Source of the DNA: Acidithiobacillus caldus ATCC 51756
GTDB lineage: Bacteria; Pseudomonadota; Gammaproteobacteria; Acidithiobacillales; Acidithiobacillaceae
Reading direction: 5' to 3'
DNA: 64,000 nucleotides
Assembly (NCBI RefSeq): GCF_000175575.2
Contig: NZ_CP005986.1
Location: 751,549-815,548 of the forward strand
Shown in pieces: positions 16,347 through 32,225 of the stretch (within the stretch, counting starts at the first letter, position 1; every line of letters starts with the position of its first letter). A model generated the notes under the pieces. The model saw nothing but the letters and a program-made list of their open reading frames with translations. It ran no database searches and was not told where the DNA came from. Made by a program: the position numbers and the translations under genes.

Positions 16347-17801
16347 ATGGCCATATTCCGTCTGCCGGGCGCTACGGGCACGAGCAAGCGCGTTCCCTTT
16401 GCGCCCTTTCGCACCATTGGCTTTTTGCTGGTGCAGTTTGTCGTGCTCGCCCTCCTGCTTTTGGGCGTGTTGCTGGTACACACCAATCAAGATCTGGCAA
16501 CACTCGATGCCTATACGGCCTACATGACCCAATTGGCCCAGATCGATGCCGAGGCAAGCCAGACCTGGGTTACGTCTGGCAGTACCCAGGCGCTGGAGCA
16601 GCTGCGGCAGGGTCTCGCGCGCATGCCGCCGCAGCTGCTGCGCCACCAGGGCGACGCGCAGGCCCTGGAACACCTGCGCGATCTGGCAGCGCGGGCCTCC
16701 CCTCGCGAGTTTCCCGAGGTGATGTCGGCTCTGGCAGATCTCAGCCTCAGCGAGCATCGTCGTGGATGGCACCTGGTGTTGGCCGCCGGTCGGGACGCTC
16801 GCTATACCCTCATCGGCACGGGTGTCGCTCTCCTGGCCTTCATGATCTTCGTCCTGGTCACTCTCGCATTTTTCCGTTTGCGTATCCTGCGGCCCTTGCG
16901 CCGGCTTCAGGAGGCCATGCACTCCCTCGAAGTGGGAGCCTTCGCGCGGGTTGCAGAGGGTCAGGCCGATCCGGGCATCAGTCCTCTGCTGCATTACTAC
17001 AATCAGATGGTCGGGCGCCTGGAAGAGCTGGAGCGCCAGCGCCGACAGTATCTCCAGGATCTGCAGCGCGAGGTGCATCAGGCGGCACACACCCTCATCG
17101 CCCAGCAGGCGGCCATGGCGCGCTCCGAACGTCTGGCAGCAGTGGGAGAGGCAGCCGCCGCCTTGGCGCATGAACTGCGCAATCCTCTGGCAGGGCTGCA
17201 GGTGGGTTGTGCCAATATCCGTCGCGAGATAGCGGACGCGGACATCAACGAGCGTCTCGGCCTCATGGAAGATGAGCTGCGCCGGGTCAGCCGTCTGCTG
17301 GATCATCAGCTGCGCGGTGCCCGTCAGGCGCAGGAGGCTGGCCAGTGGGTAAACCCGGCGGAGACCCTGGAATCCCTCATCAATCTGCTGCGCTACCAGG
17401 TGCCCGGAAATATCCGGCTGACCTTCCAGGCCGAAGCCACGGGCCGCTGCCTGCTGCCTCTGGATCACTTTCGCCAAGCGGTGTTGAATCTGCTGCTCAA
17501 TGCCATCCAGGCCCTGGGAAGCGAGGGCGGCGAGATTCGGGTCCAGCTGTCGCGCCGCGATCCGGATCTCGAGCTTGCCGTCTGCGACAATGGCCCGGGT
17601 TTTCCCGAGACGCTGTTGCGCGAGGGCATTCGGCCCTTTGCCAGTACCCGGGAGCAGGGCACGGGCCTCGGCCTCTCCATGGTACGTCGTTTTGCCCGCA
17701 GTCTCGGCGGTAGTATCCAGCTTGCCAATGCCGAACCCCAGGGCGCCGTGGTGGTCTTACGTCTGCCCTGTCCTGAAAACACCGCAAAGGAACCTTCCTG
17801 A
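16347..17801 (+). CDS. Membrane sensor histidine kinase
   Basis: A 484-residue sensor kinase. Membrane segments at about 25-48 and 152-175 enclose a ~100-residue, mostly helical sensor loop rich in Gln and Leu. A HAMP-like linker (about 176-230) and coiled region lead to the dimerisation box LAHELRNPLAGLQ, with the phospho-accepting His near residue 274, then the ATPase boxes N (LNLLLNAIQAL), G1 (VCDNGPGF) and G2 (GTGLGLSMV). It starts 3 bases after gpsA and is followed immediately by a sigma-54 response regulator, so they form a pair. The signal is unknown; the helical periplasmic loop resembles sensors of small ligands. Confidence 0.9.
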   Translation: MAIFRLPGATGTSKRVPFAPFRTIGFLLVQFVVLALLLLGVLLVHTNQDLATLDAYTAYMTQLAQIDAEASQTWVTSGSTQALEQLRQGLARMPPQLLRHQGDAQALEHLRDLAARASPREFPEVMSALADLSLSEHRRGWHLVLAAGRDARYTLIGTGVALLAFMIFVLVTLAFFRLRILRPLRRLQEAMHSLEVGAFARVAEGQADPGISPLLHYYNQMVGRLEELERQRRQYLQDLQREVHQAAHTLIAQQAAMARSERLAAVGEAAAALAHELRNPLAGLQVGCANIRREIADADINERLGLMEDELRRVSRLLDHQLRGARQAQEAGQWVNPAETLESLINLLRYQVPGNIRLTFQAEATGRCLLPLDHFRQAVLNLLLNAIQALGSEGGEIRVQLSRRDPDLELAVCDNGPGFPETLLREGIRPFASTREQGTGLGLSMVRRFARSLGGSIQLANAEPQGAVVVLRLPCPENTAKEPS

Positions 17802-19208
<1,407 letters not shown>

Positions 19209-19249: not shown

Positions 19250-19342
19250 GGAGAGATGGCCGAGAGGCTGAAGGCGCTCCCCTGCTAAGGGAGTATGGGG
19301 CTAAACACTCCATCGAGGGTTCGAATCCCTCTCTCTCCGCCA
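19250..19342 (+). tRNA. tRNA-Ser(GCU)
   Basis: A 93-base class II tRNA with encoded CCA. The acceptor stem pairs GGAGAGA with TCTCTCC, followed by discriminator G and CCA. The anticodon loop is CUGCUAA, giving GCU, which reads AGC/AGU serine codons. A long variable arm (GGGGCUAAACACUCC region) and the T-loop GGTTCGAATCC are present. Directly downstream lies a decayed gene fragment. Confidence 0.95.
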
Positions 19343-19662: not shown

Positions 19663-21018
19663 TCAAACCTCGCTCACGTTACTCAGGCCCAGGCGGGTCA
19701 TGCGTCGCCACAAGGTAACTCGATCGATACCAAGCTCTCGGGCTACGGCACTGCGGTTATTGGCATGTTTCTGAAGCAGATTGATCAAGGCGTCGCGCTC
19801 CTCGTCCAAGGGTCCCGCCGAGGCTTGACCCTGACCGATCTGGTTTTTCTGTACTCGCTCGACAAAATCCTGCGGTAAATCGGCCAGTTCGACCTCGTTG
19901 CCCGTGGCGCAGATGCTGGTGTACTCCATGATATTGCGAAGCTCGCGCACATTGCCCGGCCAAGGGTAGTCGAGGAGCAGGTGCTTGACCTGGGAACCGA
20001 GTTTACGCGCGTTGCGTCCGCCAAACTTGGCAAGAAAATACTCGGCAAGCAGGATGATATCCGAACGCCGCTCCCGCAGCGGTGGGACGTGCACGGGTAT
20101 GACGTTGAGTCGATAGAAGAGATCGGCACGAAAATCACCGCGCTCTACCGCCGCCTTCAGCCCCTGGTTGGTTGCGGCTACCACTCGCACATCCACCTTG
20201 CGAGTTTTCATCGAGCCAATGGGCTCAAAGGACTGTTCCTCCAGAACCTTCAGCAATTTTGCCTGATGCGGTTTGCTCAGTTCGCTGATCTCATCCAGAA
20301 ACAGCGTGCCGCCATCGGCCGCGGCAAATCGTCCGATGCGATCGCCGACTGCGCCCGTGTACGCACCTTTGGCAGCACCGAAAAATTCCGCCTCCCAGAG
20401 ATTCTCGGGAATGGCGGCGCAGTTGACCTCGACCAAAGGTTTGCGGGCGCGCAGGCTGCTGTCGTGGAGCAGACGGGCGAGCATTCCCTTTCCGGTCCCT
20501 GACTCGCCTTGGATGAGGACGCTGGCGTCGCTTTGCGCCACTTGTTCGATCAACTCGATGGCGCGCAACATCTGCGGGTCGCGACTGTGGATGCCCGCGC
20601 GTGACTCGCCGGAGAGGCTGCGTTCAGCCTGCCGCAGGGTCGTTACGTCTTCGATGAAAAAGACCCGATACTTTCGATCCCGTTGTCGTACCATGCGGGT
20701 GCGCAAGGCGAGGATCCGGGTTTCGTTGTCGTTGGTCACCACGCGATCCCAACTGACGCAACTTTCCGCAGGACGACTTACCGCATCCCCATGACCAGCG
20801 GAAATGGACGCCCGCACGATCTCCTTCTGCAATTGTAAATGTGGAATCTCACGTAAATGGGTGGCCCGATTGATCCCCAAGAACTGATCCGCAACGGAAT
20901 TGAAATACAGAATGTTTCCCTGTTGATCGGCAATCATCATGCCGAACGGGATATTGTCTATCAGTTGCGGCATGACGGCCAACAGGACGTCCCGAGTCTT
21001 GCTATCGAGGTCAGTCAT
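19663..21018 (-). CDS. PAS-domain sigma-54-dependent transcriptional activator
   Basis: A 451-residue enhancer-binding protein without a receiver domain. Residues about 12-125 form a PAS domain (IPFGMMIADQQGNILYFNSV, then the VFFIEDVT end strand), so it is likely controlled by a bound ligand or redox state. Residues 140-375 are the AAA+ domain: Walker A GESGTGKG (171-178), the sigma-54 loop as GAYTGA (218-223, Tyr instead of the usual Phe), Walker B LFLDEISELS. The last 45 residues are a Fis-type DNA-binding helix-turn-helix (NRSAVARELGIDRVTLWRRM). Its ATG overlaps the preceding stop (ATGA). It is the last gene of the nine-gene leftward array and the best candidate activator of the four sigma-54 promoters at 29-32 kb. 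Confidence 0.92.
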   Translation of the reverse strand: MTDLDSKTRDVLLAVMPQLIDNIPFGMMIADQQGNILYFNSVADQFLGINRATHLREIPHLQLQKEIVRASISAGHGDAVSRPAESCVSWDRVVTNDNETRILALRTRMVRQRDRKYRVFFIEDVTTLRQAERSLSGESRAGIHSRDPQMLRAIELIEQVAQSDASVLIQGESGTGKGMLARLLHDSSLRARKPLVEVNCAAIPENLWEAEFFGAAKGAYTGAVGDRIGRFAAADGGTLFLDEISELSKPHQAKLLKVLEEQSFEPIGSMKTRKVDVRVVAATNQGLKAAVERGDFRADLFYRLNVIPVHVPPLRERRSDIILLAEYFLAKFGGRNARKLGSQVKHLLLDYPWPGNVRELRNIMEYTSICATGNEVELADLPQDFVERVQKNQIGQGQASAGPLDEERDALINLLQKHANNRSAVARELGIDRVTLWRRMTRLGLSNVSEV

Positions 21019-24626: not shown

Positions 24627-27600
24627 TTACTTCGTGAACAGGCGCGTAAGAAAACGGCGCCACGCGGTGACAAAAGCCCGGAGATCCTCCCAAAGGCTAT
24701 GCCAGATCAATGACAGCAGGGCAAAACCATTGCCGCCGCGATGCTTCGTCCGCTGCGGACGGGTGCCGCTGTCCACCTTTTCGCTACGGGTAAGGGGCAT
24801 CTCCCCAGGATGGACGACGATCCAGTTGCGGCGACTCATGGGAAATGGTGGCTTCCCCCTCATCGTGCCGTTATCCAGGTCGATACTGGCCGGACAAAAA
24901 GCGCGGCGACCACTGACGCAACCCATGGGAATGACCAGCAGGGTGAGAATGGTCGACACCATCACCCCAAAGAGCAGGGAGATACCCATGCCGCGGAAAA
25001 TGGGTGAGGTGATGATCTCCGCCGAGCCCAGCATCAGTGCCAGAGCGGTAATGACGATGGGACGGGTACGGGTGGCACAGGCTTCGATCAGCGCATCGAG
25101 CACGGGATAGCCCTCGGCGACCCGCTGCTGGGAGTAATCCACCAAGAGGATCGAATTGCGCACGATGATACCGGCCAACGCGATGAAGCCGATCATCGAA
25201 GTAGCGGTAAAACTGGCGCCAAAGAGCCAGTGTCCCGGCAAAATCCCGATCAAGGTCAATGGAATGGGGACCATGATGATGGCAGGAATGATGAAATTGC
25301 CGAACTCCCAGACCACCAGCATGTAGATCAGCACCAGGGCGACCAGGAAAGCCGCGCCCATATCGCGGAAGGTGGTATACGTCACCGTCCATGCCCCCCC
25401 CCATTTGATGGCGGCACGGTCCCCACTCGGCTGACTGATCCAGTCGATTCCCAGAGCCTTGCCCGTGGGCGCTAGGTAGTGACGTAGGGCGGACTGGACT
25501 TCGAGCATGCCGTACAGAGGGGCATCGAGACGTCCCTGGGTATCCGCCATGACGTATTGCACCGGGCGAAGATCCTGCTGGTATATGGGCGCCTCTGCGG
25601 GGACGCGCTGGAAATTGCCCAGACTGTACAGTGGCACCACCCCGTAGTGCGGCGAAGGAATCGGCAGGTTGGCCAGATTCTGTACATTGCTGCGTAGATA
25701 CAGAGGTGCCTGCAGGAAAATCGGTACCGCCAGAGTCTGTCCGTAGGGATGGAAATCCCCCAGCTCGTAGCCGCCCATGACCAGGGCCAGGGTATCGTTG
25801 ACCGTGGCGTTGCTGATTCCTGCCATGCCGGCGCGGGTGGCATCCACACGGAAGGCAAGCAGGTCGTGGGGCGCCATCAGGGTGTTATTGACGTCCGTCA
25901 GGTTCCTGCTGTGTTCAAAGACCGTGGTCAGATGTTTGGCCACCGCATCCCGAACCGCTGCTGATGGACCGTAGACCTCGGCCACCACGGGCGCCAACAC
26001 CGGAGGACCCGGCGGCGTCTGCACCACCTGAAGCCGTGCTCCCCAGCTCTGCGCCACGGCTTCGATACGCCGTCGCGCCTCCTTGGCCAAAGTCGAACTG
26101 GAAGCAGAGCGATCGCCGCTGTCCACCAACTGCACGTGGATCATGGCCTGCCAAGGCTGGTTACGCAGGTAGTAGTGGCGAACCATCCCATTGAAATCGT
26201 AGGGTTCCGGCGTGCCCACGTAGCTTTGCAGGGCAACGACATCGCGCATGCCCCGTAGCCTTTCCTCAATGGCGTAGGTCGCGTTGGCGGTATCGGCCAG
26301 TGCAGTGCCCGCGGGCATGTTCACCACCACATCGAATTCATCGGAATTATCGTGGGGGAGCATGGTGAAAGGCACCCATTCCACCACGAACAAGGCTAAG
26401 CTCCCGAAGAAGGCGACGACGATACCGGCGAGAAACAATCGGCCGTAGAGCTTGCGCCGTACCAGCGGAATCAGGGTCTGGGCGAAGAATTTGCGCAACC
26501 AGGCCGCTTGCCGTGCCTCGCGATGGTGCATCTTTTCGAGCACCCGCAGATTGGGCTTGAAGCGCACGATCAACCACGGCGCCAGAGCAAAGGCGATGAG
26601 TAAGGAAGAGAGCATGGCCACGGATCCCAGCACCGGAATCGGAGCCATGTACGGACCCATCATGCCGCCCACGAAGCCCATGGGCAGCAGGGCTGCAATG
26701 ACCGTGAAGGTAGCCAGGATGGTGGGATTCCCCACTTCGCGTACGGCGTCGATGAGGGTTTCCGTCGAAGTGTTGTTCTCTTGTAGCCAACGACGATAGA
26801 CGTTTTCGACGATGACGATGGAGTCGTCGACCAGAATACCGATGGAGAAGATGAGTCCAAAAAGGCTGACGCGATTGATGGTGATGCCCAAAAGCCACGC
26901 CGCGAACACCGTAATCAACAAGATCAGCGGAATGGTGATGACGACAACGGCGGCAGCGCGCCAGCCCAGGGTGAGAAAAATGAGTGCGCTGACGGCAGCA
27001 GTGGCCACCAACAGCTTGAAGAGGAGTGAGTTGACCTTGTCGTTGGCGGTCTTGCCGTCATCCCGAGTGATGCTGACGTGGACATTCTCTGGAATGACAG
27101 ACCCCTCCAGGGAATGGATCCGCGCAATCAGCGCCTCGGCAACGCTCACGGCATTGCTGCCGGCCGTCTTGGCCAGGGCAATGGTCACCGCTGGAGCGTT
27201 GTGAATCGGCTCGCCCCTGTGCGCTGCACCGGTGCTGTAGGTAACGAGGCTGTGGGGAGCGATGGGACCGTAGTGCACGCTCGCCACCTGGGAGAGGTAC
27301 ACCGGTGCCCCATGGAAGACGCCGACGACGAGATTCTCAACCTGCCGTGGGCTGCGCAGGAAACCACCGCTCAGAATCGCCAAATGCTGGTTGTTACCCT
27401 CGGCGCTGCCACTTTGCGACTCCTGATTGGCGGAGCGCACCACCTCGGCAACGGCCTGGGGCGGCAGGTCATAGGCCGCCAAACGGCTTGGCTGCACATC
27501 GATATTCAGCGCGTCGGTAGCGCCGTGAACGATAAAGCTCTCGCCAGTGTCGGGAACCTCCTTCAAGCGCTTCAATACGCTCTGGGCGATTTCATCGAGG

Positions 27601-28115
27601 GTTCCCGGGCCCACACTCTCGGACCAGAGCGTAAAGGTCATGAAGGGGACGCTGTTGATACCCTTGGCGCGCACCAGGGGCTTGCCCGCCCCGACGGGGA
27701 TACGATCCATGTTTGCGGCGAGTTTGTTGTACACCGCCACCAGAGCCGGGGCCATGTGTTCGCCCACCTCAAAGCGCACCGTGACCATGGCCTCGCCCTG
27801 ATTGGAAACCGAATACACGTGGCGCACGCCCGGCAGTTCGCTCATCAGCTGCTGCAGGGGGTCTGCGACCATGCGTGCGACTTCTCCGGGCGAATGCCCA
27901 GGGTAGGGCACGAAGATGTCCACCATGGGCACGGATATCTGCGGATTGGATGCCCGCGGTGTGGAAACCAAGCCCAGAATACCGGCGGCGAGCAGCACCA
28001 CGAGCGAGAGCGGCGCCAAAGGCGAGTTGATGAAAATACGGGCAATGCTGCCTGCGAGACCAAGGCTTTTCTTCTCCGGCGCTTGCGGAGTGGGACTGCC
28101 GTTGCAGGTGCTCAT
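24627..28115 (-). CDS. RND-family inner-membrane transporter
   Basis: A 1162-residue transporter of the AcrB/hydrophobe-amphiphile RND type. Membrane helix 1 is near residue 35, the two large periplasmic loops follow helices 1 and 7, and the proton-relay Asp pair in helix 4 is kept (GILVDDSIVIVENV). In helix 10 the segment is AGIIVRNSILLVDY, with Arg or Asn where AcrB has its relay Lys. About 95 residues after the last helix (from CVSGRRAFCPASIDL to the end) form a basic, Trp-containing C-terminal extension that AcrB lacks. It overlaps the adaptor gene by ATGA. No outer-membrane channel gene lies nearby. Substrate unknown; the company it keeps suggests a hydrophobic or envelope-destined compound. 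Confidence 0.9.
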   Translation of the reverse strand: MSTCNGSPTPQAPEKKSLGLAGSIARIFINSPLAPLSLVVLLAAGILGLVSTPRASNPQISVPMVDIFVPYPGHSPGEVARMVADPLQQLMSELPGVRHVYSVSNQGEAMVTVRFEVGEHMAPALVAVYNKLAANMDRIPVGAGKPLVRAKGINSVPFMTFTLWSESVGPGTLDEIAQSVLKRLKEVPDTGESFIVHGATDALNIDVQPSRLAAYDLPPQAVAEVVRSANQESQSGSAEGNNQHLAILSGGFLRSPRQVENLVVGVFHGAPVYLSQVASVHYGPIAPHSLVTYSTGAAHRGEPIHNAPAVTIALAKTAGSNAVSVAEALIARIHSLEGSVIPENVHVSITRDDGKTANDKVNSLLFKLLVATAAVSALIFLTLGWRAAAVVVITIPLILLITVFAAWLLGITINRVSLFGLIFSIGILVDDSIVIVENVYRRWLQENNTSTETLIDAVREVGNPTILATFTVIAALLPMGFVGGMMGPYMAPIPVLGSVAMLSSLLIAFALAPWLIVRFKPNLRVLEKMHHREARQAAWLRKFFAQTLIPLVRRKLYGRLFLAGIVVAFFGSLALFVVEWVPFTMLPHDNSDEFDVVVNMPAGTALADTANATYAIEERLRGMRDVVALQSYVGTPEPYDFNGMVRHYYLRNQPWQAMIHVQLVDSGDRSASSSTLAKEARRRIEAVAQSWGARLQVVQTPPGPPVLAPVVAEVYGPSAAVRDAVAKHLTTVFEHSRNLTDVNNTLMAPHDLLAFRVDATRAGMAGISNATVNDTLALVMGGYELGDFHPYGQTLAVPIFLQAPLYLRSNVQNLANLPIPSPHYGVVPLYSLGNFQRVPAEAPIYQQDLRPVQYVMADTQGRLDAPLYGMLEVQSALRHYLAPTGKALGIDWISQPSGDRAAIKWGGAWTVTYTTFRDMGAAFLVALVLIYMLVVWEFGNFIIPAIIMVPIPLTLIGILPGHWLFGASFTATSMIGFIALAGIIVRNSILLVDYSQQRVAEGYPVLDALIEACATRTRPIVITALALMLGSAEIITSPIFRGMGISLLFGVMVSTILTLLVIPMGCVSGRRAFCPASIDLDNGTMRGKPPFPMSRRNWIVVHPGEMPLTRSEKVDSGTRPQRTKHRGGNGFALLSLIWHSLWEDLRAFVTAWRRFLTRLFTK

Positions 28116-29236
28116 GCATCCGCTCCCGAAGCAGTGCGCAGCCGATAGCCGGAGCCAATCCCGGCGGGCGGATCGTTGACCACGATCTCTCCAGGTCGTA
28201 ATCCCGACAGCACTTGCACCATGCCGTTACCCAGGGGTTCGCCCAAGCGCAAGACGCGCAGTTGCGTGACGCCGCGCACGTCCACCAGTACCGAGGGCAG
28301 ACTACGGCCGGGCAGCAAGGCCGACTTCGGGATGGCCACACCAAGGGAGGTCGACCGTGCAGCGGGCAGATGCACCGTCACATAATCACCGGCACGAATA
28401 CCGGTGTCCGGCGGTAGAGCGAGCTTGACGGCTATGGTATGGGTCTGCGCATCGGCCTGGGGCGCGATCTGTATCACCCGCGCGTCCACGGAACGCCCAT
28501 TGCTGGCGACTTCCAATGCCTCCCCAAGCCGCAGGCCCGCGCTCATGCTGGTGGGAACCTGAACCAGGACCTGCGCTGGTCCAGCCCCGCCCAAGACCAG
28601 AAGCGACTGGCCGGGCTGTACCACATCGCCCGGGTTCACATCCTTCTGCAAAATGACCCCGTAGAAAGGAGAGACGCCGTACGCGTTGCGGATCTCGGCG
28701 TCGATTTCGCGAATGCGATAGGCCGCCGATTGCAGCTGGGCCTGCGCCTGCAAGGCGGCGGCGCGGCGATTGTCCAGGGCTGCAAGATAATTGGCCCAGG
28801 GATTTTGCTGGTTGCCCATCATGGCAGCGAAGGCCTGACCAAACCAGGCGAAGGGATTCCAGGGATTGGCGCCGCCGTAGTTGTAGAGCTGCACCTGATA
28901 CTGGGAGTAACCATTGTCCACTGCCACCTGTGCGGCCGCATAGGCAGCCTCCGCCTGTGCCCGTTGTGCCAGCAGACCGGCGGTATCCAGCGCAACGACC
29001 ACCTCGTCGCCGCGAACCGGCGTGCCCGCAGGACCGGCAACGTACTGTACGCGACCGCCCGTCTGCGCCCGCAACACCACAACCTGCCCAGGAATGGCAC
29101 GGGCACCCAGGACCGGACCCAAAGCCGGCGCTTGGTGTACCTCGATCAAGGTCGGTGCGGCAAAGGCAAGGGTCGGCACAAGGCCGAGCGCCAGCATGGG
29201 CAACCAGCGAATTACGGTAAAGCTTCGAGAGGTCAT
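28112..29236 (-). CDS. Periplasmic adaptor (membrane-fusion) protein of the RND pump
   Basis: A 374-residue adaptor linking the RND pump to the outer membrane. A signal peptide (about 1-26, ending LAFAA) is followed by a biotinyl-lipoyl half-motif (GGRVQYVAGPAGTPVRGDEVVVAL), a helical hairpin at about 85-185, the second lipoyl half (YGVILQKDVNPGDVVQPGQSL) and beta-barrel and membrane-proximal domains. The hairpin is interrupted at about 118-150 by a Trp/Asn/Phe-rich insert (NPWNPFAWFGQAFAAMMGNQ), unlike the usual tip. I use the ATG at 29236; longer starts would precede the predicted sigma-54 transcription start. First gene of the nine-gene array. Confidence 0.88.
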   Translation of the reverse strand: MTSRSFTVIRWLPMLALGLVPTLAFAAPTLIEVHQAPALGPVLGARAIPGQVVVLRAQTGGRVQYVAGPAGTPVRGDEVVVALDTAGLLAQRAQAEAAYAAAQVAVDNGYSQYQVQLYNYGGANPWNPFAWFGQAFAAMMGNQQNPWANYLAALDNRRAAALQAQAQLQSAAYRIREIDAEIRNAYGVSPFYGVILQKDVNPGDVVQPGQSLLVLGGAGPAQVLVQVPTSMSAGLRLGEALEVASNGRSVDARVIQIAPQADAQTHTIAVKLALPPDTGIRAGDYVTVHLPAARSTSLGVAIPKSALLPGRSLPSVLVDVRGVTQLRVLRLGEPLGNGMVQVLSGLRPGEIVVNDPPAGIGSGYRLRTASGADA

Positions 29237-29273: not shown

Positions 29274-29289
29274 AGCATAGTTCGTGCCT
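29274..29289 (-). promoter_or_regulatory. Sigma-54 promoter of the RND/secreted-protein array
   Basis: On the minus strand the sequence reads AGGCACGAACTATGCT, against the sigma-54 consensus TGGCACGNNNNTTGCW. The invariant GG (-24) and GC (-12) are present with correct spacing. Transcription would start near 29263, giving a short leader before the ATG at 29236. Prediction from sequence only. Confidence 0.75.
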
Positions 29290-29334
29290 AATAGTAACGT
29301 ATTGTTTTCTATGCAATAATAAAATATCGATCGG

Positions 29335-29570
29335 TGATCTGTTGCACGACGGAAGGGTGTTTATAATGAAAAACAAAGAGATGATCTGTTGCAGGGGGAG
29401 CGTTGCGTTGCAGCACTCTTGGTCATCGATAGCGTGTGAGTCCAATTATCATCGTGGATTCAGACGGTTTTACGCGCTCGCGGAAATCGTCTGCTGCACA
29501 TGCAACGGCTGCAACAGGCGTAATATCGCAAGTGCATAATAAAAACAATGCGATATGTAATACCGTTGCA
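29335..29570. promoter_or_regulatory. Candidate activator-binding region between divergent sigma-54 promoters
   Basis: The 514-base gene-free stretch 29237-29750 is markedly more A+T-rich than its surroundings and holds six copies of GTTGCA or its complement TGCAAC: 29341, 29388, 29407, 29501, 29510 and 29565 (first base of each). Two lie in an exact 12-base direct repeat TGATCTGTTGCA (29335-29346 and 29382-29393). At 29493-29506 there is a near palindrome GCTGCACATGCAAC. The positions, 45 to 300 bases upstream of two opposed sigma-54 promoters, are what is expected of enhancer sites for an NtrC-type activator. Confidence 0.65.
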
Positions 29571-29624
29571 AAAAGAAAGAAGTCCGACCTCTAATATATA
29601 ATGAAAAAACATTGGGTTATAATT

Positions 29625-29640
29625 TGGCACGGACTGTGCT
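29625..29640 (+). promoter_or_regulatory. Sigma-54 promoter of the rightward secreted-protein/TPR pair
   Basis: TGGCACGGACTGTGCT matches the sigma-54 consensus TGGCACGNNNNTTGCW at every conserved base except one (G for the first T of TTGC). Transcription would start near 29651, about 100 bases before the ATG at 29751; the leader contains a hairpin GGGGCGC-AAAAG-GCGCTCC. Confidence 0.82.
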
Positions 29641-29750
29641 TGCCGTCATCTCAGTAATTCTGGAATGGGATTGCCGGGTGTCGAAAGGGGCGCAAAAGGC
29701 GCTCCGGACAACGACAGAAGATGGCGACTATGCGCAGGAGTACACCAATC

Positions 29751-30299
29751 ATGAAGATGAAGAAAAGGTGGATGTTTGGTTCGGCCGCGGTTCTGGGGGT
29801 GTCTGCCCTATTGGCCGCGGCGCCGGCCTTTGCCTGGGGTCCGTGGGGTGGTATGCCCTGGGGAGGCGGCATGCCCTGGGGCGGGGTGAGCAATCCCTTT
29901 ACCGGCAGTAGCGGCCCTTTCAGCGGCTACGGCGGCCCCTTTACTGGCAGCAGCGGACCCTGGGACATGGGCAGCATGAGCTTCAACGGGCCCCATGGTG
30001 GCCCGATGAATTTCAACAGCGGTCGTTATGGCAGCTACGGGCAAGGATTCAATGGCTACTACGGCGGTGCCTATGGCGATGGCTATGGTCAAGCCTATGG
30101 CCCGAGTGCTCCTTATCCCGCCTATCCGGGTTACGGACCTCAAGGGGCTTATGGGGCTTATCCTCAGCCAGCACCCGGTTACGCCCCGGCCTACCCACCG
30201 GCGCCAAACTATGCGCCGCCCGCTGGTCCCTATGGTTACGGCCAGCCCTATCCCGGTTACGCGCCCAGCTACAACCCCTATGGTTACGGGTATCGCTGA
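29751..30299 (+). CDS. Secreted Gly/Trp/Tyr-rich protein (family copy 3)
   Basis: A 182-residue protein with a signal peptide (about 1-26, ending AAAPAFA) and mature N-terminus WGPWGGMPWGGGMPWGG. It carries the family block GPWDMGSMSFNGPHGGPMNF and then a Tyr/Gly region (GQGFNGYYGGAYGDGYGQAY) and a Pro/Tyr-rich tail ending NPYGYGYR. The order matches copy 1, with a shared GSYG or GAYDG-type segment. AGGAG lies ten bases before the ATG at 29751; ATGs further upstream lack signal-peptide fit. A sigma-54 promoter is about 110 bases upstream. Probably a structural exported protein. Confidence 0.78.
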   Translation: MKMKKRWMFGSAAVLGVSALLAAAPAFAWGPWGGMPWGGGMPWGGVSNPFTGSSGPFSGYGGPFTGSSGPWDMGSMSFNGPHGGPMNFNSGRYGSYGQGFNGYYGGAYGDGYGQAYGPSAPYPAYPGYGPQGAYGAYPQPAPGYAPAYPPAPNYAPPAGPYGYGQPYPGYAPSYNPYGYGYR

Positions 30300-30396: not shown

Positions 30397-31278
30397 ATGA
30401 CAAGCAATGAGAAGGACCTGCACGCCAGCGAGGACGAGACGCCGTCCGTTGGCGAAGGACCCGACGCCGAGCGCAGCGTGCACGAGCACGGCGATGCCGT
30501 GTCCGAGACGGCGGCGTCCGAGGCCACCCGTCTGGCTGCGGGGAAGGAATCGGAGGGCGAGGCCGTGCCATCCGGGACGCAAGCGCCGCAGGTGACTCCC
30601 ACGACGGGAACCACGGCACCCAGTTTTGCGTCCCAGAGTTCGGGCACGACGGCACCCTCCCTTGGCTCTGCGGGGGGTGGTACGACTCCGCCCGGAGGCA
30701 CCACGAGCTATCCGCCGCTGCCGCCTCGGCAACCCAAAAAAAGCGCGGTCAGCCGGCTGCTCTCATGGCCCGCCCTGGTTGCCCTCCTGATCATCCTAAT
30801 CATTGCGCTGTTCATCTGGGGGATTAGCGCCCACCAGAAAAGCAGTGCCCCGAAAGTCGCCGAAAAGACCCTTACCGTTGCTCCCATTGCTGCACCTGGC
30901 ATGGCGGCAGGCTCGCAGGCGGCACCTAGGCTCAGTGCCGAGCAGCGTCAGGAGCTCATGGCGGCACGTGCCGCCTATTGGCAGCACGACATTCCCGCTG
31001 CCATCGCGAAGTATCGGGCACTGATCCGACAGGTCCCCAATGCAGCCTTTGCCTACGGTGAATTGGGCAATGTCTATTATATGGACGGTGAGCGGCACAA
31101 GGCGGCGGAAAATTTTTCCCGCGCAGCCATGCTGTTGATTCGGCAGGGTCAGGAACAGAGGGCCGCGAGTCTGGTTCCGGTGCTTGGGACCCTGGATCCT
31201 GCCTTGGCACAAAAAGTTCAGGAAGCGCTGGCGCACAGTCCTGAAGATCGGGGCTACGGCAGCGAGGATAGATATTAG
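30397..31278 (+). CDS. Single-pass membrane protein with C-terminal TPR region
   Basis: A 293-residue protein: an acidic, Ser/Thr/Gly/Pro-rich cytoplasmic N-terminus (about 1-118), one membrane segment (about 125-147, WPALVALLIILIIALFIWGI) and a periplasmic TPR-like region (about 180-280) with MAARAAYWQHDIPAAIAKYR, FAYGELGNVYYMDGERHKAA and SLVPVLGTLDPALAQKVQ. That region aligns with the two TPR proteins of the leftward array. GATAGGAG precedes the ATG. It follows copy 3 of the secreted family by 97 bases and ends at a strong terminator, so the two make up one transcript. Confidence 0.8.
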   Translation: MTSNEKDLHASEDETPSVGEGPDAERSVHEHGDAVSETAASEATRLAAGKESEGEAVPSGTQAPQVTPTTGTTAPSFASQSSGTTAPSLGSAGGGTTPPGGTTSYPPLPPRQPKKSAVSRLLSWPALVALLIILIIALFIWGISAHQKSSAPKVAEKTLTVAPIAAPGMAAGSQAAPRLSAEQRQELMAARAAYWQHDIPAAIAKYRALIRQVPNAAFAYGELGNVYYMDGERHKAAENFSRAAMLLIRQGQEQRAASLVPVLGTLDPALAQKVQEALAHSPEDRGYGSEDRY

Positions 31279-31332: not shown

Positions 31333-31728
31333 CTAGACCCGGGCCATCACCGAAAAGCTTTTGACGAAAGGTGTGGCCATGCGTGGATCTTTCAACATGC
31401 TCTTGTAGTCCCCCACCTTGAACTTGATCTTGCCGGTAGTGAAGGCCATACCTAGGCCCGTCATGCCGGGCGGGCTCGATATCCACTTCATCCACTGATC
31501 GACGCTGGCACGAATGTCCCAGTTCAGCGCTTGCCCTTGATAGGCGCCGGCACTGGCCACCTGCCCCTTGAGTACCTGAAGAAATCCGCGAGGCGCTTCC
31601 TCCTCCACGAAGCCGTAGGCGATGTTGGAGGCAAAGTCGATTTGTCCCAAGGCCTGGGCCAGGTCGGGTTCTCGGTTCCACTCAGCGGCAAATCGTTCCA
31701 TCCATGCGGGCGAAAATAGTTCTGCCAT
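31333..31728 (-). CDS. SCP2 (sterol carrier) domain protein
   Basis: A 131-residue soluble protein; the ATG at 31728 has AAGGAGAG in place. It opens MAELFSPAWMERFAAEWNRE and contains VASAGAYQGQALNWDIRAS, MTGLGMAFTTGKIKFKVGDY and FVKSFSVMARV, an order and pattern I associate with stand-alone bacterial SCP2-type lipid-binding proteins. Such proteins bind hydrophobic ligands in a cavity; the ligand here is unknown. It has its own predicted sigma-54 promoter and appears to belong to the same regulon as the pump and secreted proteins. Confidence 0.75.
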   Translation of the reverse strand: MAELFSPAWMERFAAEWNREPDLAQALGQIDFASNIAYGFVEEEAPRGFLQVLKGQVASAGAYQGQALNWDIRASVDQWMKWISSPPGMTGLGMAFTTGKIKFKVGDYKSMLKDPRMATPFVKSFSVMARV

Positions 31729-31785
31729 GCGTTGACTCTCCTTGTATCTGTCAGACGGGGCACGATGCCCCGTGCGCATGGCTCA

Positions 31786-31801
31786 AGCAGCTTTCGTTCC
31801 C
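31786..31801 (-). promoter_or_regulatory. Probable sigma-54 promoter of the SCP2-type gene
   Basis: On the minus strand: GGGAACGAAAGCTGCT. The GG and GC pairs have the correct ten-base spacing; three of the other consensus bases differ (first T, the C of GGC, first T of TTGC), so it is the weakest of the four. Transcription would start near 31775. Confidence 0.55.
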
Positions 31802-31875
31802 ACGCTAGGGATATCGTATTAAGCATAAAAAAACAATAGGATAGTAATCGGGTTGCGATAGGATTGGCGAGAAGC

Positions 31876-31912
31876 CGTTGCAGGTGCAACGCGGTATCCG
31901 TAGCTTGCAACA
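31876..31912. promoter_or_regulatory. Palindromic candidate activator site CGTTGCA-GG-TGCAACG
   Basis: A perfect 16-base palindrome at 31876-31891 plus a further TGCAACA at 31906-31912. The same GTTGCA/TGCAAC half-sites are clustered between the first pair of sigma-54 promoters. It lies about 75-90 bases upstream of the SCP2-type promoter and about 280 bases upstream of the rightward promoter at 32172. Confidence 0.7.
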
Positions 31913-31924
31913 CCCCCCCCCCCC
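31913..31924. repeat. Homopolymeric C12 tract
   Basis: Twelve C residues directly after the TGCAACA half-site. Mononucleotide tracts of this length can change length by slippage. It lies in the gene-free region 31729-32225, whose remaining sequence, apart from the sites listed, shows no gene. Confidence 0.8.
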
Positions 31925-32171
31925 GAATGGATCCAAGCCGGCGTTGACGGGATCCAGCCAGGGTCCTGAAGTTAGCCGAATTGGGTTGGCAGATTGGCGG
32001 ATCTCGTACCGGGTTCTCCGCCTCCCTGGGCTGTGGTCGCTTGACAGCCGGTGCTTGTCGGTAGGGGGTAGGGATGGATGTTCGCGATGGTGCGCATCGC
32101 CAATTCACCCTTGTCGCTCCCAGGAAACACCTGCGAGCCACCCGGGGGGCTCAAAGCCCGATAATTACAGT

Positions 32172-32187
32172 AGGCACATACCTTGCT
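32172..32187 (+). promoter_or_regulatory. Sigma-54 promoter of the basic secreted protein and lipoprotein
   Basis: AGGCACATACCTTGCT: the GGCAC and TTGCT parts are exact and the spacing is correct. Transcription would start near 32198, 28 bases before the ATG at 32226. Confidence 0.75.
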
Positions 32188-32225
32188 TGTAACGCTGTGT
32201 ACTTGGGTGACAAGGAGATCCACGC

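Follow-up and report, generated by a model that had tools for sequence, protein, structure and literature searches.

Divergent sigma-54-type promoters beside an SCP2-fold gene of Acidithiobacillus caldus: a predicted half-site regulon to the left and, probably, a separate regulon to the right

Introduction

An intergenic region of Acidithiobacillus caldus ATCC 51756 (positions 31729–32225 of the 64-kb stretch of DNA analysed here, hereafter the window) carries a palindrome and sigma-54-type promoter sequences pointing in both directions. The original prediction was that this gene-free region repeats the promoter and palindrome arrangement of a first region beside an RND pump array, and that a shared half-site joins the genes on both sides to the pump in one regulon. 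The question raised by the locus is whether the two promoters obey one regulator or two, and which proteins would act on them. Within 31729–32225 a convincing gene was indeed not found, and the region and its flanking genes contain the following features.

31333–31728, minus strand: SCP2-fold protein, 131 aa (AlphaFold pLDDT 93)
31784–31803, minus strand: leftward −24/−12 element GTGGGAACGAAAGCTGCTTG of the SCP2 gene, 11.4 bits
31876–31891, no strand: palindrome CGTTGCA-GG-TGCAACG, with half-sites at 31877–31882 and 31885–31890; proposed activator site of the SCP2 promoter
31906–31911, no strand: third half-site, TGCAAC
32112–32129, plus strand: TGTC-N10-AACA element TGTCGCTCCCAGGAAACA; proposed activator site of the rightward promoter
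32171–32188, plus strand: rightward −24/−12 element TAGGCACATACCTTGCTT, 16.6 bits
32226–32573, plus strand: basic, tyrosine-rich secreted protein, 115 aa
32590–32814, plus strand: proline-rich lipoprotein, 74 aa (lipobox LSGC, read by eye)

Results

Both strands of the 64 kb were scored with a sigma-54 weight matrix whose frequencies were approximated from the known consensus TGGCACG-N4-TTGCW. The expected matches facing left toward the SCP2 gene and right toward the secreted protein were found at 31801 (minus) and 32172 (plus), the leftward one being weak but kept in four relatives. In the window, 29625 (plus, 17.4 bits) ranked first, 32172 second and 29289 (minus, 14.0 bits) third, and 31801 was only tenth because GGGA replaces GGCA. 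A GG-N10-GC core with TGGCAYR-N4-TTGCW-like flanks is present in four promoters, namely the top three of the window and the weaker leftward one. Because chance alone yields scores of 11–12 bits several times (about ten) per window, the case for the leftward site is one of conservation. At the corresponding position ahead of the SCP2 start codon, G017 carries GCGGGAATGAAAGCTGCTTG, and canonical sites of the TGGCA type occur in G015, G007 and G004. A scan for sigma-70 promoters and terminators gave matches no commoner than in shuffles, and the only Rfam match was tRNA.

The SCP2-type label of the leftward gene holds as a fold. Pfam and PDB profile searches gave no match to SCP2 by sequence; the AlphaFold model aligned with sterol carrier protein 2 (2cx7) at Z 16.5 (Foldseek E 2e-7), well above the remaining matches. 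By its modelled structure, the protein is thus a member of the SCP2 superfamily at the level of fold. Its homologues, judged by record titles, come mostly from sulfur oxidisers.

The palindrome CGTTGCAGGTGCAACG and the TGCAACA beside it at 31906 are both present as predicted. The palindrome consists of two 7-bp arms with a 2-bp spacer between them, and a pattern search for CGTTGCA-NN-TGCAACG found this single copy in the 2.99-Mb genome, in the same intergenic region as −24/−12 sites pointing in both directions. The third half-site lies 21 bp, or two helical turns, from the second, and the 21-bp step is also seen in G017. Directly adjoining the third half-site is a run of 12 C (31913–31924), one of only two G/C runs of at least 11 in the genome; G017 has CCC there. 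Homopolymer C runs can vary in length.

The same half-sites occur in the first region, whose features are listed below.

24627–28115, minus strand: RND pump of the AcrB/AcrD/AcrF family (Pfam ACR_tran 3e-142), overlapping the adaptor gene by 4 bp
28112–29236, minus strand: RND periplasmic adaptor (MFP; HlyD_D23 / RND_mfp)
29275–29291, minus strand: sigma-54 element TTAGGCACGAACTATGC of the adaptor-pump operon; genome-wide pattern match with a half-site 51 bp away
29341–29570, no strand: six half-sites (29341, 29388, 29407, 29501, 29510, 29565)
29623–29642, plus strand: sigma-54 element TTTGGCACGGACTGTGCTTG of the glycine/tyrosine-rich protein gene, the window's best; genome-wide pattern match with a half-site 54 bp away
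29751–30299, plus strand: secreted Gly/Tyr/Pro-rich protein, rightward target of the first region
30397–31278, plus strand: membrane-anchored TPR-like protein, convergent with the SCP2 gene

Over the whole window, GTTGCA/TGCAAC is found 27 times against 29.7 in order-2 shuffles, which is the chance level. All nine intergenic occurrences (9/9) fall in the two regions, and neither the three half-sites within 40 bp at the SCP2 gene nor the six within 235 bp in the first region were reached in shuffled sequences (0/200 in each case).

The SCP2, adaptor, pump, TPR-like and glycine-rich genes co-recur in three genera of the Acidithiobacillaceae, a family of acidophiles that oxidise sulfur; among the close relatives are Candidatus Igneacidithiobacillus taiwanensis and a number of Acidithiobacillus species (gene calls beyond the Pfam matches came from a simple script). 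Half-site clusters flanked by sigma-54 sites were observed upstream of the SCP2, adaptor-pump and glycine-rich genes and, in g2 genomes, also of cydAB-SQR. The homologous intergenic DNA of 11 genomes, 6.0 kb in total, contained 67 half-sites against 2.9 expected, the regions having been picked by gene homology and their limits fixed after the sites were seen. The base preceding GTTGCA was T or C in 66 of the 67, which extends the half-site to YGTTGCA, and 19 of the 20 direct pairs within 40 bp were spaced by 9–13 or 19–24 bp, that is, one or two helical turns. Such conserved, repeated upstream sites at enhancer distance suggest a regulon dependent on a sigma-54 activator.

The half-sites recur in both direct and inverted orientation, and of four close relatives only G017 retains the exact dyad, with half-site pairs persisting at the same place in the others. 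The strict 16-bp palindrome was thus rejected as the conserved unit; as far as sequence comparison tells, what the promoters share is the half-site in variable arrangements, and what is conserved is the cluster rather than the exact palindrome. The predicted repetition of the arrangement is confirmed with this one correction. An identical palindrome in G018 (L034) was taken as chance, as a sigma-54 site is absent nearby and the genes are unrelated.

Several other arrangements were seen around SCP2 genes. Half-site pairs lie just upstream of SCP2 at L145 9878–9895 and L150 940–966, with no PAS activator within the stretch examined, and G029 has a further SCP2 gene with GTTGCAAC some 105 bp in front of it (L032 7553–7560). 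In g4 genomes, a PAS-GGDEF-EAL protein of about 912 aa (L027 4960–7698, also L028–L030) is divergent to SCP2 and replaces the window's secreted-protein gene.

The protein proposed to read the half-sites is encoded by the last gene of the same-strand array.

19663–21018, minus strand: PAS – sigma-54 AAA+ – Fis-type HTH activator, proposed regulator

Pfam finds PAS, Sigma54_activat and HTH_8 in this protein and no receiver domain, as in one-component PAS-type activators; a curated NCBIfam model was not reached at its cut-off. Of 19 family genomes, the same 9 encode orthologues of both the activator (E below 1e-100) and the SCP2 protein (E below 1e-50), and the other 10 encode neither (p 1e-5 with phylogeny ignored). 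Two diverged activators also neighbour SCP2, adaptor and pump genes, with half-sites between them: one in L134, from an Acidihalobacter MAG, and one in L033, from the more distant genome G029. Both retain the recognition helix G[IV]DR[VS]TLWR. Sedimenticola and Thioalkalivibrio have SCP2 loci too, in Sedimenticola often with adaptor and pump, and near most of these neither the activator nor half-site clusters were found. The gene position, the co-occurrence and the recognition helix make the PAS activator the best candidate for regulator of the YGTTGCA sites. A published survey of Acidithiobacillia activators covers those also holding a receiver domain, and the PAS activator with its YGTTGCA sites falls outside it (PMC12194929). 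Our literature search turned up nothing that deals directly with the motif, with SCP2 in sulfur oxidisers or with this activator.

Pump-type promoters have their nearest half-site 50–55 bp upstream of the −24 element. When genomes were searched with GTTGCA-N45..75-sigma54, all nine family genomes that have the activator gave matches with N=50–55, as did two of the ten that lack it (Fisher p 7e-4, optimistic because the genomes are related); these genome-wide tests are pattern searches only, and the reversed-pattern control gave 2 matches in 30 genomes. Of the matches in the two activator-less genomes, one precedes an unrelated gene (L062) and the second is rich in G+C. Searched as TGCAAC, the pattern gave, beyond the pump promoters, mostly chance-like matches. 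An IHF consensus was placed exactly 5 bp before the −24 element in 13 of 17 pump-type promoters (mean match 8.1/9; 0/1000 shuffles), which is consistent with a role of IHF there, whereas IHF-like matches at SCP2 promoters, the window's included, were weaker or reversed. Against the proposed leftward control stand the non-canonical GGGA of the sigma-54 element and the position of the half-sites of the window's SCP2 promoter, about 75 bp from the −24 element, not 50–55 bp; in relatives whose SCP2 promoter showed a half-site, the spacing is longer too (81–82 bp in G004 and G007).

The rightward promoter has no half-site at 50–55 bp. Instead it carries the TGTC-N10-AACA element, close to the QseF/GlrR consensus TGTC-N10-GACA (PMC8745638). 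G001, of the same genus, lacks orthologues of the activator and of SCP2, yet has an orthologue of the 32226 gene (67% identity), and the DNA upstream keeps the sigma-54 site together with TGTCGCCCAGAGGAAACA, the counterpart of TGTCGCTCCCAGGAAACA; both elements end in AACA, not in GACA. No palindrome was found there, only two isolated GTTGCA at non-equivalent places. Paralogues in several genomes bear TGTC-N10-GACA or GACG without GTTGCA clusters. With TGTC-N10-RACA-N35..65-sigma54, the rightward promoter was the sole match in this genome (G000); 16 genomes gave matches (control, 2 matches), and 15 of these belong to this family, whether or not they encode the PAS activator. GlrR/GlrK is reported to be conserved in Acidithiobacillia (PMC12194929).

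Because G001 keeps the sigma-54 and TGTC elements without activator, SCP2 and palindrome, and because the TGTC pattern is family-wide and independent of the PAS activator, the rightward gene pair probably belongs to a separate regulon with a GlrR-type candidate site. The same observations make it unlikely that transcription on the two sides belongs to a single regulon, with the PAS activator acting from the palindrome, even though both promoters are of the sigma-54 type and share one intergenic region and the palindrome is 280 bp from the rightward promoter, a distance from which sigma-54 activators can act. The proposal that the half-site unites all these genes with the pump array is accordingly divided: for SCP2 it is well supported by the shared sites here and in relatives and by the co-occurrence of the activator, and for the secreted-protein and lipoprotein genes, which have a TGTC element of their own, it is not supported. 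Loss of the palindrome in relatives that keep the genes, named beforehand as evidence against a common regulon, was seen for the rightward gene in G001 and only partially for SCP2.

Other features were noted around the rightward promoter. A second palindrome, GCGATG-GTGCG-CATCGC (window 32084–32100), lies 71 bp before the rightward −24 element and is not kept in G001. In G001 a recombinase-like gene (L118 1218–2543) stands upstream of the 32226 orthologue, whose chromosomal position may vary. Family-wide TGTC-N10-GACA sites with sigma-54 promoters (L186–L206) look like a GlrR-like regulon.

The half-sites could also serve another regulator, such as the receiver-type activator (17802–19208) of the two-component system at 16347–19208, a neighbouring sigma-54 activator. 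This protein, however, occurs at 76–97% identity in five family genomes that have neither SCP2 nor the PAS activator (97% in G001), and its recognition helix differs; we rejected it for the half-sites and consider a reading of this kind quite improbable. The G001 contig ends just past the gene of this receiver-type regulator, and in the window a tRNA-Ser is located at 19250–19342.

It is scarcely credible that the palindrome and the sigma-54 matches arose by chance: the half-site number in the window does equal expectation and a score like the leftward one is within reach of chance, but the clustering, the restriction to two intergenic regions, the in-place conservation, the fixed spacing and the co-occurrence all argue against it.

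A link to sulfide comes from the g2 genomes (L035, L036, L037, L042), in which the cydAB-SQR and adaptor-pump operons have the same half-sites and sigma-54 promoters. The SQR of the cydAB-SQR operon matches 3sz0 in the PDB (E 4e-193), and cytochrome bd was assigned by Pfam. This genome's own SQR was rejected as a regulon member because its upstream DNA lacks a half-site cluster, so that the sulfide theme comes from the relatives.

Discussion

We consider it likely that the region holds a divergent pair of sigma-54 promoters belonging to two regulons, with the PAS activator acting leftward and a GlrR/QseF-like regulator rightward. From the sites, spacing, conservation and co-occurrence observed, we infer that the PAS activator would bind the YGTTGCA half-sites at 31876–31911, some 110 bp ahead of the predicted transcription start of SCP2, and once bound would drive sigma-54 transcription of the SCP2-fold gene. 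It would also bind the array at 29341–29570 and, with the help of IHF, drive the adaptor-pump operon and the glycine-rich and TPR genes. Autoregulation is probable, because the adaptor-pump operon runs toward the activator gene. The GlrR/QseF-like response regulator would bind the TGTC-N10-AACA element and independently drive the secreted-protein and lipoprotein genes.

The physiological theme of the half-site regulon would likely be sulfide or sulfur oxidation, as the same sites precede cydAB-SQR in some relatives. One tentative, admittedly doubtful, extension is that the PAS activator senses sulfide, sulfane sulfur or quinone redox state, and that the YGTTGCA arrays switch on SQR and cytochrome bd (in some species), the RND exporter, the SCP2-fold carrier and the glycine-rich secreted proteins, which might jointly handle hydrophobic sulfur or its membrane damage.

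These predictions provide a concrete operator, a promoter geometry and a candidate regulator for accessory genes of sulfur-oxidising acidophiles, the biomining group, and through the relatives they connect sulfide oxidation with an uncharacterised pump and a protein resembling lipid carriers. They also illustrate that sigma-54 promoters lying together between two genes may answer to different regulators.

Judged by its sequence features, the half-site regulon is a new one of a known kind. The domain order PAS – Sigma54_activat – HTH_8 and the GAYTGA loop are common to one-component PAS/AAA+/Fis-HTH sigma-54 activators, and upstream half-sites, an IHF-like site and a −24/−12 promoter are found here as in those systems. 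The window's SCP2 protein matches 2cx7 over the whole domain in fold, with about 18% identity. An operon of Azospira suillum (Dsui_3440–3443) combines an RND adaptor and pump with sulfide:quinone reductase and is reported to be raised in expression during sulfide oxidation (PMC5358917); the likeness is one of gene content, and the passages on this operon name neither a regulator nor binding sites. The rightward promoter resembles the GlrR/QseF regulon in its TGTC-N10-AACA element and sigma-54 site. The known target of that regulon is the GlmY small RNA, whereas here the target would be a secreted protein and the last half-site is one base off.
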